The notes below the pieces were generated by a model. That model saw only the letters and a list, made by a program, of their open reading frames with translations, ran no database searches and was not told the DNA's origin. Below, piece after piece: positions 59,068 to 64,000 of a stretch of 64,000 bases of DNA. The translations under genes and the position numbers were made by a program. Source of the stretch: Balneolaceae bacterium (GTDB taxonomy: Bacteria > Bacteroidota > Rhodothermia > Balneolales > Balneolaceae); NCBI GenBank assembly GCA_017640665.1, contig JAEPQE010000002.1, forward strand, positions 806,001 to 870,000, written 5' to 3'. The stretch's first letter is position 1. Every line of letters starts with the position of its first letter.

Positions 59068-60165
59068 ATGAAAAAACTATCTCTGCTAAGTTGTTGCCTT
59101 TTTATTCTAATAACCTCAACATTAAATGCTCAGGATTTTATATCTGTACCTTTCAATTCAGAAAACTGGAATTTCGGGAATCTGGACACAGAAGTTGAAA
59201 CCTATATGGGGAAACAAAGCTATCGCCTGAATGGCGCTACCATTTCTACTAAAGAAGTGGATCTTATGAATGGCACCATCGAGATCGATATCAATTTTCC
59301 TTATGGCCGATTTTTCCCTGCTATCTTATTCAGATTTCAAGATGGAGATAACGCAGAAAGCTTCTATGTACGCCCACATCAATCCGGAAACCCTGATGCA
59401 ACCCAGTATACACCTTTTTTCAACTCTTATTCCGGATGGCAGTTATATCATGGAGAAGGACACAGTGCCGCAGTTGAGCTGGAACCTGATACCTGGCATC
59501 ACATTAAAATTGATATTTTGGATGATCAGGCAGATATATATTTTGGCGATATGGAAACTCCATTAATCAAAGTAACTGACCTCAAAAGAGATCCGGTTTC
59601 AGGAGGCATTGGATTAAGTTCTGGAGCACCCGTTTACTTCGCCAACCTGAAATATTCAACATCCAACCCAACTCTTACCGAACGGAATAATACAAAGGAA
59701 GAAATCCCGAAAGGACTCGTCAAAGAGTGGTATATAACTGATATAGTTTCCGATGTAGACTACCGAAATAAATCGTCCATACATCCAGGAAACTTAAAAT
59801 GGACTAAACAACCAACTGAGTATACGGGTACCATAAACCTTGCGAAGTTTGTACAAAGTGAGGAAGGAAAAACCACCGTACTCACCAAGTTGAATATTGA
59901 GTCAGAATCAGAAATCTATAAACGACTTGATTTCGGTTACAGCGATTTCGTTTGGGTGTATGTAAATGGTAATCCTGTTTATTCTGGAAGGAATGAATTC
60001 ATGTCACGCGATTACAGATACTTAGGGACAATAGGCTGGTTTGATAGCGTGTATTTGCCTCTCAAAAAAGGACTAAATGAAGTAATGTTTGTTGTCGGAG
60101 AAAATTTTGGAGGATGGGGCTTAAAAGCCAAAATAGAAAATATGGAAGGGATTACACTCAAGTAA
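59068..60165 (+). CDS. exported LamG/concanavalin-like domain protein
   Basis: 365 residues with signal peptide (LSLLSCCLFILITSTLNA-Q). N-terminal jelly-roll module (about 25-205): NGTIEIDINFPYGRFFPAIL, DGDNAESFYVRPHQSGN, ELEPDTWHHIKIDILDDQ and GGIGLSSGAPVYFANLKY. The C-terminal module (about 240-360) is strand-rich, with WVYVNGNPVYSGRNEF and GLNEVMFVVGENFGGWGLKA (beta-galactosidase-jelly-roll-like). Glycan binding is the family expectation; no catalytic residues recognised. Divergent from the HTH/PKD/LamG regulator, so a regulator-target pair is plausible. Ends overlapping pxpC by 8 bp (convergent). Confidence 0.78.
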   Translation: MKKLSLLSCCLFILITSTLNAQDFISVPFNSENWNFGNLDTEVETYMGKQSYRLNGATISTKEVDLMNGTIEIDINFPYGRFFPAILFRFQDGDNAESFYVRPHQSGNPDATQYTPFFNSYSGWQLYHGEGHSAAVELEPDTWHHIKIDILDDQADIYFGDMETPLIKVTDLKRDPVSGGIGLSSGAPVYFANLKYSTSNPTLTERNNTKEEIPKGLVKEWYITDIVSDVDYRNKSSIHPGNLKWTKQPTEYTGTINLAKFVQSEEGKTTVLTKLNIESESEIYKRLDFGYSDFVWVYVNGNPVYSGRNEFMSRDYRYLGTIGWFDSVYLPLKKGLNEVMFVVGENFGGWGLKAKIENMEGITLK

Positions 60166-61024
60166 AAGAAAAACTGACTTTGTCTCCCGGCTTAACTTGT
60201 CCCAATCGCCAGAGGTCTTCATCCAGCACTTTGGCGATTCTGGGATATCCACCAATAGTTTGGCCATCTTGCATTAAAATTATTGGGTTTCCATTTGGTG
60301 GGAGCTGAATTATTCCAGGAAGAACAGGACCTGAAATCATTTCACGTTCAGGAACTCTTAGCGAATGTCCTTCTAACCTTATTCCCATCCGGTTACTAGA
60401 GCTACTGACTTCGAACTGAGTGCCTGAAAAACCATCCTGTGACTCTTCAGATAACCAATCCCACTCAACACCCTTCATTATCCTAACTCTTACTTTAGAG
60501 GAAAAATAAGGGATTTGATCATACGGAGCTTTTCGTGTTAGATCTTTGGATTTTGTTTCATCCCATTCGATTACATCACCCGACTTTAATTTACGTCCCT
60601 TAAAGCCACCAAATTTACCCATGGTATACGTGGAACAGGAGCCCATCACCTGTTTAATTGTTAAAGAGCCTTTGATCGCTATATAACTCCGGCATCCCCT
60701 GGTTGAAAAGCCTAGTTCGAGTTCATCACCCGTGTTTAGTTTTAAAGATTGATTTTGAGGAACTTCTTCTCCATTGATTTTTGGATGCATCAATGCGCCA
60801 GTGACAGCAATTATGGCTTCATCATTAAATGTATACTTCCCACCTTTCATCGTGCATTCCAGAACCGGATACCTTTTAGAATTTCCAACTAACCAATTCG
60901 CAAGCCTAAAAGACTTCTGGTCCATTACTCCCGATACCGGGACACCAAATTTCCGGTACCCAGGCCTTCCTGAATCCTGAATTGTTGTGAACAATCCTCC
61001 ATCAATTGCTGTTAACCTACCCAC
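60158..61024 (-). CDS. pxpC: 5-oxoprolinase subunit C (KipA/biotin-dependent carboxyltransferase family)
   Basis: 288 residues. Signatures LFTTIQDSGRPGYRKFGVPV, SGVMDQKSFRLANWLVGN, GVEWDWLSEESQDGF, MGIRLEG and SGPVLPGIIQLPPNGNPIIL are those of PxpC/KipA. With PxpA and PxpB it forms the ATP-dependent enzyme that opens 5-oxoproline to glutamate. Gene order pxpA-pxpB-pxpC and the 8-nt overlap with pxpB show a tight operon. Confidence 0.95.
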   Translation of the reverse strand: MGRLTAIDGGLFTTIQDSGRPGYRKFGVPVSGVMDQKSFRLANWLVGNSKRYPVLECTMKGGKYTFNDEAIIAVTGALMHPKINGEEVPQNQSLKLNTGDELELGFSTRGCRSYIAIKGSLTIKQVMGSCSTYTMGKFGGFKGRKLKSGDVIEWDETKSKDLTRKAPYDQIPYFSSKVRVRIMKGVEWDWLSEESQDGFSGTQFEVSSSSNRMGIRLEGHSLRVPEREMISGPVLPGIIQLPPNGNPIILMQDGQTIGGYPRIAKVLDEDLWRLGQVKPGDKVSFSFT

Positions 61025-61697
61025 GATGAAACTCCTTTTCCGAAATGGAAGTAAACTTTACCTTGTCACCGGCTTTTAATAGAGTTGGCGGATTTTTCGA
61101 GCTATCAAAAAAAGATTTCGGACTTCTTCCAATGATATTCCAGCCACCCGGGCTCTCCAATGAATACATTCCGGTCTGATTTCCTCCTATTCCAATCGAC
61201 CCGGCAGGAACTCCTGTTCTTGGAGTCGATTTACGCGGCACTGCGAGTTTAGCATCCAGGCCGTTTAGAAATATGAAACCCGGAATAAAGCCCATCATTG
61301 CAATGGTGTATATTTTTGAGTTGTGTAGTTCAATAATTTGTTCTTTTTCTAAACCGGTTTGCCTGATCACATCTTTCCAGTCCATTCCAAGTTCATAACA
61401 AACCGGGATTTCAATCATATTCTGTACAGCTTTCACCGATGACTTCCCTTCCGAAAGATTCTCAATTTCAGCAATCAATGTATGATGATCCCATTTACTT
61501 CCATCAAAAAAAACTGCCAATGAAGAATACGCCGGTACTATATCGATTATACCTTCTAAGCCTGCGCCTTCCATTTCGGATATAAGCTTATGGATGTGTT
61601 CGAGTTCTTCATTTTCGGGCCGCACCAAGAGCGCATGCTCTCCAAGAACCTCGGAAACCCAGTTTTGACCATTACGATATAGAGATGGCAACCCCAT
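61017..61697 (-). CDS. pxpB: 5-oxoprolinase subunit B (KipI family)
   Basis: 226 residues. Allophanate hydrolase subunit 1-like: PVCYELGMDWKDVIRQTGLE, MMGFIPGFIFLNGLDAKLAV, PRKSTPRTGVPAGSIGIGG and SPGGWNIIGRSP. In Bacillus the homologue KipI inhibits a sporulation kinase; here the operon context favours the metabolic role. It overlaps pxpA by 26 nt upstream and pxpC by 8 nt downstream. Confidence 0.95.
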   Translation of the reverse strand: MGLPSLYRNGQNWVSEVLGEHALLVRPENEELEHIHKLISEMEGAGLEGIIDIVPAYSSLAVFFDGSKWDHHTLIAEIENLSEGKSSVKAVQNMIEIPVCYELGMDWKDVIRQTGLEKEQIIELHNSKIYTIAMMGFIPGFIFLNGLDAKLAVPRKSTPRTGVPAGSIGIGGNQTGMYSLESPGGWNIIGRSPKSFFDSSKNPPTLLKAGDKVKFTSISEKEFHRG

Positions 61698-62430
61698 GTT
61701 TGCGTAGAAAGGTGTTTATAGTTTGTGCCAGAGTAATTGCCCCGGGAGTATCGCTATGCAAACAAATAGTTTCCGCTTTGATTGGCTTCTTTACTCCGGA
61801 ATATGTCAATACTTTACCCTCTAAAATCAAATGGCGCAGTTGAGTAATTACGTCTGTTTCATTATGCAGTACAGCATCAGGCAATGCACGTGAACGAAGA
61901 CGTAGATCATCTTCATACGCACGATCTGCAAATACTTCGTATATGACCTCTAATCCCTCTTCCTTTGCCATTATAGAAGAAAAAGAGCCTTCTGGTAAAT
62001 ACACTTTAATTCCTGGTGATGCCTGCTTAATAGCAGATATAACTATTTCTGAGGTGGCTTTATCTTTAACAGCCTGATTGTACAAGGCACCGTGAGGCTT
62101 TACGTGATGAAGTTCAACTCCAACTTCTTCCAGGCATTTTTTGAGCCTATTAATTTGACCAATAATACTATCTTTTAACAAATCAGGAGTGATATCCATC
62201 ACTACTCTTCCAAAATTTTCCGGATCAGGATATCCGGGATGGGCACCCAGTGCAACGCCATGTTTTTGTGCTAACCTGATCGTTGCTCTCATTGACTCTT
62301 CATCTCCGATATGTCCACCACAGGCAACATTGCATGAGGAAATGAATGGCATAATAGCTTCATCCAACTTCGCTCCATCTTTTGATTTCCATTCACCGAG
62401 GTCACAGTTTAAATCGACATGCTTTTGCAT
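61672..62430 (-). CDS. pxpA: 5-oxoprolinase subunit A (LamB/YcsF family)
   Basis: 252 residues. LamB/YcsF signatures at the N terminus: HVDLNCDLGEW, FISSCNVACGGHIGDEESM, GVALGAHPGYPDPENFGR, VKPHGALYNQ and AEDLRLRS-like PDAVLHNETDVI. It binds 5-oxoproline together with PxpBC. It starts at 62430, sharing one base with the stop of the NRAMP-like gene. Confidence 0.95.
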   Translation of the reverse strand: MQKHVDLNCDLGEWKSKDGAKLDEAIMPFISSCNVACGGHIGDEESMRATIRLAQKHGVALGAHPGYPDPENFGRVVMDITPDLLKDSIIGQINRLKKCLEEVGVELHHVKPHGALYNQAVKDKATSEIVISAIKQASPGIKVYLPEGSFSSIMAKEEGLEVIYEVFADRAYEDDLRLRSRALPDAVLHNETDVITQLRHLILEGKVLTYSGVKKPIKAETICLHSDTPGAITLAQTINTFLRKHGVAISIS

Positions 62431-63662
62431 TATAAGAATCCAAATACTGAGTTTAAGCTTCGAAAACTGATAAGAATGGCTACCAAAATCACAATCAATC
62501 CAAGTACATTTTGTGTTACTGAATTGATGTAGCTACCAAGTAATGATTTTTTATTAACTAGATAAAGCAGGAATATTGCAATTAAAGGTAAGAGTATTCC
62601 ATTTGCAACCTGTGCGAATTGAATCACCTGCACCGGACTTATTCCAAACATAGAAAAAAGCACTCCAATAAACAGGATACCCATCCAAACCACTTTGAAA
62701 CGCTTTGAACCAAGACCTTCTTCCCATCCCAGAATACCTTTGGCCGCATAAGCCGCTGCCAGAGGAGCTGTAATGGCAGAAGAAATACCTGCTGCGAAAA
62801 GCCCCAATCCCAAAAAATAGCCGGACCAACTTCCCAACAGAGGCTCTAATTGAATAGCCATATCTGCTGCACTGTTTATTGTTCGGTCTCCAAACAACGT
62901 TGTGGCACTGGTTATTACAATGCTCATTGAGATAATTCCACCCAAAATGATTGCCGTGGCGTTTTCTTTTCTGAGATCACTAAGCTGATCCACATCTTTA
63001 TATTTCTTCTGAACGATGGATGCATGTAAAAATAAGTTGTACGGTACTACGGTGGTTCCAATTAAGGCAATTACTGTAAGCATTTGTTCTGAAGAGACTG
63101 AGGGAATTAAAAGTCCTCGTACAACTTCTGCCAGATCAGGGCCTGTAACAAACGCAGTAGTTAAAAAAACTAAGCTCATGACGAGTACCAAGCCAATCAA
63201 AAACCGCTCTATAAGCCTGAAGCTGCCAGTAATTAATAAGCAGAATGCAATTGCTCCAATTATAAGCGGCGATGCTGAAATATATATCCCGTTGATATGA
63301 GTTCCCAGATTAAAGAATAGTTCCTCAAAACCAAGTACAGCTCCTGAAATATTCCCTCCTTCATAGGCAGCATTTCCAAAAACTATCGCTCCAAGAACTA
63401 AAACAATTCCCAAAAATCTGGCTATAGGATGAGTAAGCTCTTTCCGGATTGCTTCTCCAAATCCTTTTTGTGTTACAAGTCCTAGTCTTGCCGTCATTTC
63501 CTGAAGAACAATAGTAGCAATCACAGAAAAAAGAATAGCCCATAGTAGCATATAGCCGGACCTCACTCCTGCCAACGTGCAAACCGTTACGGTTCCGGGA
63601 CCTATAAAAGCGGCTGTTACAAGGGTACTGGGACCAAAATATTTAGAAAGCATATTTTTCAT
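62430..63662 (-). CDS. NRAMP-related transporter lacking the canonical metal-binding motifs (candidate 5-oxoproline transporter)
   Basis: 410 residues, ~11 membrane helices, clear NRAMP-family layout (FIGPGTVTVCTLAGVRSGYM at helix 1; TTVVPYNLFLHASIV at helix 6). In metal-transporting NRAMPs helix 1 has DPGN and helix 6 has MPH; here these are GPGT (21-24) and VPYN (206-209), so both metal-ligand sets are lost. The Bacillus ycsG gene, beside ycsF (pxpA), is of this type. Operon position directly upstream of pxpA (1-nt overlap) suggests uptake of 5-oxoproline or a related compound. Substrate is inferred, not shown. Confidence 0.85.
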   Translation of the reverse strand: MKNMLSKYFGPSTLVTAAFIGPGTVTVCTLAGVRSGYMLLWAILFSVIATIVLQEMTARLGLVTQKGFGEAIRKELTHPIARFLGIVLVLGAIVFGNAAYEGGNISGAVLGFEELFFNLGTHINGIYISASPLIIGAIAFCLLITGSFRLIERFLIGLVLVMSLVFLTTAFVTGPDLAEVVRGLLIPSVSSEQMLTVIALIGTTVVPYNLFLHASIVQKKYKDVDQLSDLRKENATAIILGGIISMSIVITSATTLFGDRTINSAADMAIQLEPLLGSWSGYFLGLGLFAAGISSAITAPLAAAYAAKGILGWEEGLGSKRFKVVWMGILFIGVLFSMFGISPVQVIQFAQVANGILLPLIAIFLLYLVNKKSLLGSYINSVTQNVLGLIVILVAILISFRSLNSVFGFL

Positions 63663-63663
63663 A

Positions 63664-64000
63664 TCAGGAAGCCTCTTTCAGATAGATTTTGAGTACCGAA
63701 TATATTTTCCAACTGGAATAGGGTTTTGTTATAAATTCTTTCATACCCAGTTCTTTTGCTTTCACCATCGCTTCTTGTGTTACATTTCCTGTTACAGTAA
63801 TTATTGGAGTTGTAATTCCAAGTGATTTAATTTCTTTAGTAGCTTCAAAGCCATCTTTTTTTGGCATGTGAATATCCATAAAAATGATATCGTACTTTTT
63901 TGCAGCTGCTTTACTAACAGCTACTTCTCCATTTTCGGCACGGTCTACTTTTACTTTATAGCGCTCCAGCACTTTTTCCAGTACAATCTGATTTAATTCT
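63664..64000 (-). CDS. response regulator receiver domain (5' end beyond window)
   Basis: Minus-strand frame open to the window edge, so the start is outside. The visible ~112 residues form a CheY-like receiver's major part: NQIVLEKVLERYKVKVDRAE, phospho-Asp in IIFMDIHMPKKDG, TPIITVTGNV and KEFITKPYSS, ending LKEAS. The N-terminal acidic pair lies beyond the edge. It may be the C-terminal receiver of a hybrid kinase or a lone regulator. It ends 1 bp before the NRAMP-like start, so it is probably in the same transcript. Confidence 0.85.
   Translation of the reverse strand, partial: ELNQIVLEKVLERYKVKVDRAENGEVAVSKAAAKKYDIIFMDIHMPKKDGFEATKEIKSLGITTPIITVTGNVTQEAMVKAKELGMKEFITKPYSSWKIYSVLKIYLKEAS

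Follow-up and report, generated by a model that had tools for sequence, protein, structure and literature searches.

An NRAMP-superfamily gene within a Balneolaceae 5-oxoprolinase operon as a candidate 5-oxoproline importer

The transporter gene and its operon

The stretch of DNA analysed here (the window, 64,000 nucleotides of a Balneolaceae genome) carries on its minus strand, at 62430-63662, a gene for a 410-residue NRAMP-fold transporter (PF01566, E 1.6e-88), which we assign to a group termed branch I and regard as a candidate 5-oxoproline importer. The open reading frame begins with ATG, and its presence was confirmed. It is followed on the same strand by pxpA (61672-62430), pxpB (61017-61697) and pxpC (60158-61024), which encode 5-oxoprolinase subunits A (LamB/YcsF; PF03746, 1.1e-83), B (PF02682) and C (PF02626), respectively. 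The three products score above the cut-offs of NF003814, TIGR00370 and TIGR00724, in that order, and the pxpC product scores below that of the PxpC equivalog NF045499. Each gene overlaps the next, with the transporter stop and the pxpA start sharing one base (TAATG). Judged by family-profile matches, a complete PxpA, PxpB and PxpC set therefore adjoins the transporter, and the initial annotation of an NRAMP homologue overlapping pxpA in a 5-oxoprolinase operon was confirmed in each part.

The transporter gene is preceded, at a distance of 1 bp, by a gene for a hybrid histidine kinase, of which only the 3' end (63664-64000, minus strand) falls within the window; its 678-residue product (L090, 5665-7701, Pfam) has a CHASE-HisKA-HATPase-receiver arrangement. 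A CHASE hybrid histidine kinase is likewise encoded 5' of the transporter in the closest relatives; loci noted for this kinase gene are L090, as above, and L114, 1917-3992. Judging only from the position of its gene, this kinase may sense the transported substrate. No Rfam match to a manganese riboswitch was found within the 14-kb locus of the window's own genome.

Placement within the NRAMP superfamily

The window protein scores 297.6 bits against PF01566 (gathering cut-off 29.8) and falls below the cut-offs of the narrower metal-transporter models, i.e., 164.5 vs. 430 bits for the NCBIfam MntH model NF001923 and 113.9 vs. 272.5 bits for TIGR01197. It nevertheless passes the broad NCBIfam model Nramp_1, 'Nramp family divalent metal transporter' (88.4 vs. 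50 bits), which is probably the route by which such genes acquire their metal label. NCBIfam holds no model that sets apart branch II, a second group of NRAMP-like proteins that are approximately 23-25% identical to the window protein.

In a tree of 79 rows, built by a quick method without bootstrap, the window protein falls within a branch I clade of 41 rows (starred support 99) and outside the clades formed by canonical NRAMPs (12 rows, starred support 100), by NRMT proteins (6 rows, starred support 95) and by branch II, which includes MumT (10 rows, starred support 100). When six long or uncertain rows were removed, a second quick tree placed branch I on one side of a branch with an unstarred support of 85, and a grouping of branch I with branch II received a support of 50. 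Branch I is thus separate from MntH in both quick trees. Its sampled members come from Bacteroidota/Balneolaceae, Proteobacteria and haloarchaea; two scans of viral contigs yielded no further relatives.

Residues at the metal-binding site

Three motifs, with coordinates derived by hand from the open reading frame on the minus strand, characterise the window protein: GPGT in TM1 (residues 21-24, 63591-63602) in place of DPGN, YEGGN in TM3 (residues 100-104, 63351-63365) and VPYN in TM6 (residues 206-209, 63036-63047) in place of MPH. In a profile alignment to canonical NRAMPs, G21 and T24 occupy the positions of the Asp and Asn of DPGN, V206 and Y208 those of the Met and His of MPH, and Q351 aligns with the canonical TM10 Gln. 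GPGT, N104, V206, Y208, N209 and Q351 are the same in all 41 rows of branch I, and conservation of this degree in GPGT, V206 and Y208 indicates that the motif replacement is not due to chance. The TM1 Asp is kept in the canonical and NRMT rows, whereas Gly stands there in branches I and II. In TM3, E101 is Glu in 35 rows and Gln in the other six; in the profile alignment, the canonical Asp falls opposite E101 and the canonical Glu opposite N104, and the published comparison of orphan sequences is shifted by approximately three residues from this register, according to our reading of the letters. An AlphaFold model of the protein, built from only three sequences, had a mean pLDDT of 34.9.

The initial claim that the metal-binding residues are lost is thus correct for DPGN and MPH and needs amending elsewhere, because the TM10 Gln is kept as Q351 and E101 is present in TM3. 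The residues that persist (the TM10 Gln and the TM3 Glu or Gln) would fit the proposal, made for MumT and for YcsG/MntG, that such a protein imports a divalent metal (Mn2+ or Mg2+) on which nitrogen metabolism or the oxoprolinase depends, hence its place in the operon. The match to Nramp_1 also speaks for such a role, as does the genome itself, in which no canonical MntH, i.e., no NRAMP with DPGN and MPH, was found. Nor was an ABC-3 Mn/Zn permease found in that genome, which has two ZIP matches and one FeoB match, and metal-transport redundancy therefore provides no argument against a metal role. Two further NRAMP-like genes of the window's genome (L002 and L003) also lack DPGN and MPH, having IGTGS and IGVSH in TM1. 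Against import of a metal stands the replacement of the TM1 Asp and Asn and of the TM6 Met and His in all 41 branch I rows, together with the Gln at position 101 in six of them, and binding of a divalent metal at the usual site of branch I appears unlikely from these residues. Nonetheless, motif loss by itself only makes metal transport less probable, and it is gene context and co-occurrence that carry the argument for an importer of 5-oxoproline.

Gene neighbourhoods across the phylum

A search with the window protein across 198 genomes of the phylum yielded 47 branch I loci. The same 47 were recovered by a blind scan of the DNA for AAF[IV]GPGT, which gave one additional match; this match was rejected as a chance occurrence, as it lies inside or beside another gene in a genome (G056) without any NRAMP match at 1e-10. 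At 33 of the 47 loci, branch I is accompanied by oxoprolinase genes, either pxpABC (25 loci) or hyuA/hyuB (8 loci), whereas none of 23 loci of other NRAMP genes has such neighbours (Fisher 3.4e-9; these 23 were our choice among the matches listed, viewed over approximately 6 kb per side, with some cut by contig ends). The association thus involves two oxoprolinase kinds, and the HyuA family is unrelated to PxpABC. At one locus (L026, extended as L092), an inserted gene separates the branch I gene from the pxp genes.

The 14 loci without an adjoining oxoprolinase gene count against an importer of 5-oxoproline; however, pxpA is present elsewhere in the genome in ten of these cases and hyuA in three, and in the last (G167) hyuA lies approximately 7 kb away. 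Across the 198 genomes, pxpA is present in 36 of the 48 with branch I, compared with 10 of the 150 others, and pxpA or hyuA in all 48, compared with 27 of the 150. (The 48 include G128, which has only the 3' part of the gene, next to pxpA and close to the end of a contig, and which was not counted among the 47 loci; the threshold for hyuA was E<=1e-60, with the exception of G119, where it was counted from locus L050.) By genus, pxpA or hyuA is found in 24 of 24 with branch I and in 18 of 78 without (Fisher 2.6e-12). Counts by genus are given because 19 of the 47 loci are pxp-linked loci of the window's own family, and since the genomes are related, the p-values overstate independence.

Some loci have further features. 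In G053, the branch I gene adjoins a gene for gamma-glutamyltranspeptidase, which lies directly 3' of the transporter (L093, 9319-11052), with the pxpABC genes of that genome located elsewhere. A DUF2891 gene is found directly 5' of branch I at L092 (3875-5002, Pfam), and a similar-looking gene was noted by eye at L093 (6838-7995). One subclade of branch I, in which TM6 reads VTYN, adjoins a gene of the 2-oxoacid:ferredoxin oxidoreductase type (L037, 2999-5967, by Pfam; L039, by eye). At L128 (G178), pxpA was seen without detected pxpB or pxpC within approximately 4 kb.

HyuAB-linked and haloarchaeal relatives

The best 24 records from a plasmid collection comprised 23 from haloarchaea and one from Pseudoalteromonas. 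Twelve of the haloarchaeal records were examined, of which ten have hyuA and hyuB directly downstream of branch I, one is ended by the record end, and one lacks them; Haloferax mediterranei is one host of a hyuAB-linked member. In the haloarchaeal records branch I is annotated as 'Nramp family divalent metal transporter'. The annotation of the Pseudoalteromonas and Qipengyuania relatives shows neither pxp nor hyuAB neighbours. Two records listed as plasmids (NZ_CP077849.1 and NZ_OL790811.1; 3.7 and 4.1 Mb) look like chromosomes.

On the tree, the pxp label requires three changes and the hyu label four. It therefore appears that the partner enzyme was switched while the transporter stayed, a pattern that a shared substrate would explain better than a shared need for metal. 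The solved structures nearest to HyuA are N-methylhydantoinase and 5-oxoprolinase, and among curated models caprolactamase comes closest to it. In several of the haloarchaeal records, a gene of the racemase family lies 3' of hyuAB. The hyuAB-linked members may handle another cyclic amide. Together with the oxidoreductase gene beside the subclade at L037, these observations provide the grounds for a different cargo (another lactam, hydantoin, glutamate or glutamine) or for export of 5-oxoproline. We give this possibility little weight, because the enzyme in the window and in its closest relatives is PxpABC, for which the published substrate is 5-oxoproline, and because a pxp-linked NRAMP relative is reported to be needed for growth on this compound in Corynebacterium glutamicum, where the proline carriers did not substitute for it.

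Retention of the oxoprolinase association across both bacteria and haloarchaea also bears on whether the gene might be a passenger, or a degenerate NRAMP without a transport role. Such a reading could draw on one Balneolaceae genome (G139), in which the kinase gene abuts pxpA and pxpABC is kept in the absence of the transporter. Since none of the 47 branch I matches has an internal stop and the motifs do not vary among the 41 rows, we consider it highly improbable.

Other transporters in the operon slot

Among the 46 genomes with pxpA, ten have no branch I gene. In six of them, a branch II NRAMP (GPGF) lies beside pxpA; in one, an MFS transporter gene is part of the operon; and in three, no recognised transporter adjoins it. 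A weakness of the counts is that pxpA is also commoner in genomes that have only other NRAMP matches (9 of 75, with branch II beside pxpA in five of the nine) than in those without any NRAMP match (1 of 75, where branch II again lies beside pxpA). A scan for the branch II signature returned seven genomes, i.e., the six with an adjoining pxpA and G190, whose branch II gene has no pxp neighbour and is a counter-example to strict linkage. The MFS gene lies between pxpC and pxpA (L116, 2739-3980) and is a candidate for an unrelated 5-oxoproline carrier; an MFS gene also occurs near pxpC in two genomes whose branch I gene is unlinked. A metal importer would not readily account for a transporter that tracks two unrelated oxoprolinases and is replaced by an MFS protein in one operon. 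Overall, we consider a role as metal importer unlikely. An NRAMP-like pair with GPGS in TM1 (L056 and L067) falls outside branch I. In E. coli K-12, the pxpBCA cluster contains no NRAMP gene.

MumT of Acinetobacter baumannii falls in branch II, with GPGF in TM1 and GGTVGGY in TM6. By eye, the mum locus (L103, 5899-12103) encodes a PxpA homologue, a hydro-lyase, a fused PxpB-PxpC-like protein and a biotin carboxylase, and a Klebsiella operon of like order is annotated with the same gene set. The substrate of this 'manganese and urea metabolism' operon may thus be other than urea. MumT resembles the window protein in being NRAMP-like and encoded next to a PxpA homologue, but differs in its branch, its motifs and the composition of its operon.

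Relation to known systems

In a 2017 paper on oxoprolinase, B. subtilis YcsG was reportedly linked to the use of 5-oxoproline. In the B. subtilis operon, ycsI follows ycsG, and YcsI is presumably a hydro-lyase of the kind also encoded in mum-type branch II operons; PxpT of C. glutamicum and YcsG may therefore, by analogy, belong to branch II. According to the available part of the 2023 report, YcsG is a Mn2+ importer, renamed MntG, whose overexpression raises cell Mn, and the earlier 5-oxoproline evidence left a polar effect possible. MumT was likewise reported as a Mn importer (2016), as its deletion lowers cell Mn. These mutant and cell-metal data favour the metal importer and count against our reading; nonetheless, in the portions of these papers available to us, they concern one protein of branch II and one, YcsG, that is unplaced on our tree. 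PxpT (2026), which belongs to the NRAMP family and shares 50% identity with YcsG, is required for growth on 5-oxoproline, and the consulted part of that report leaves metal transport possible. Both PxpT and YcsG are likened to the window protein by published description and operon context, i.e., an NRAMP-family gene in a pxpABC operon. The initial annotation had pointed to ycsG as a similar gene beside pxpA in Bacillus; the parallel in context stands, but the substrate of YcsG is disputed in print, and there is a second pxpA-linked branch, only distantly similar in sequence to the window protein.

Canonical MntH/Slc11 proteins (DraNramp, BfraNramp) share the fold family and the TM10 Gln with the window protein, whereas DPGN and MPH are found only in the former. 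NRMT Mg2+ transporters (EleNRMT) also lack the full DPGN and MPH but keep the TM1 Asp (DAGG) and form another clade. In the sections available, metal transport is ascribed to both EleNRMT and BfraNramp, and a 2026 preprint, as far as its available text goes, describes Nramp-related proteins as a paraphyletic set that has neither motif. A further counterpart is an 'orphan' Slc11 outgroup within PF01566 (Cellier 2023, PMC10606218), for which the accessible part of the paper states neither function nor gene context. Branch I shows the residues that characterise this outgroup (G for D and T for N in h1, VY in h6, YN in h3), a match at the level of motifs, and the window protein carries the corresponding signature (GPGT in TM1, V and Y in TM6, Y...N in TM3).

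Within a limited library, only the YcsG and PxpT papers, in their accessible parts, bear on oxoproline transport by NRAMPs, and no literature was found on a hyuAB link of NRAMPs or on the function of the orphan family. The idea of a 5-oxoproline importer has already been published for ycsG of B. subtilis and pxpT of C. glutamicum, whereas the separate clade, the hyuAB association and the orphan match look new.

Proposed function and mechanism

It is probable, on the evidence of sequence and gene context, that the branch I gene of the window encodes an NRAMP-superfamily secondary transporter of the LeuT fold that imports 5-oxoproline or a closely related lactam. This explanation is preferred because the gene overlaps an operon with complete pxpABC; because Gly replaces the TM1 Asp throughout branch I; because the transporter follows the reaction rather than one enzyme, being linked to pxp or to hyu genes in bacteria and to hyuAB in ten of the twelve haloarchaeal records; because unlinked loci retain pxpA or hyuA in the genome and every branch I genus has one or the other; because branch II or MFS transporters take the slot beside or inside pxp operons; because branch I adjoins gamma-glutamyltranspeptidase in G053; and because PxpT is needed for growth on 5-oxoproline. 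The initial proposal of a strong candidate importer is thus upheld, as a candidate, by the separate clade and by the pxpABC and hyuAB context.

GxG segments in amino acid carriers of the APC type offer backbone amides to the substrate carboxylate. In the mechanism that we infer for this protein, including its substrate, direction of transport and mode of binding, the unwound GPG of TM1 would similarly hold the carboxylate with free backbone amides, and polar residues of TM3, TM6 and TM10 (N104, Y208, N209 and Q351) would face the lactam ring. Once 5-oxoproline had entered through the LeuT-fold carrier, coupled to either H+ or Na+, PxpABC would open it to glutamate, using ATP.

Implications

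Branch I represents a distinct variant of the published idea, with a context that is broader and more testable than that given in the initial annotation. If it carries 5-oxoproline, the divalent-metal label would be wrong for a clade sampled here from Bacteroidota/Balneolaceae, Proteobacteria and haloarchaea, the orphan outgroup would gain a function, and the question of whether YcsG carries Mn or 5-oxoproline would become directly testable via relatives with clear signatures. A wider conjecture, to which we give somewhat less than an even chance, is that the whole orphan Slc11 outgroup consists of bacterial and archaeal importers of 5-oxoproline or lactams, independently recruited by two unrelated ATP-dependent oxoprolinases, and that a second NRAMP branch reached the same operon slot separately. 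Should this be so, MumT and YcsG would owe their Mn phenotypes to indirect or secondary effects, and metal transport by the NRAMP fold would be one specialised role within a superfamily whose members also transport organic acids.
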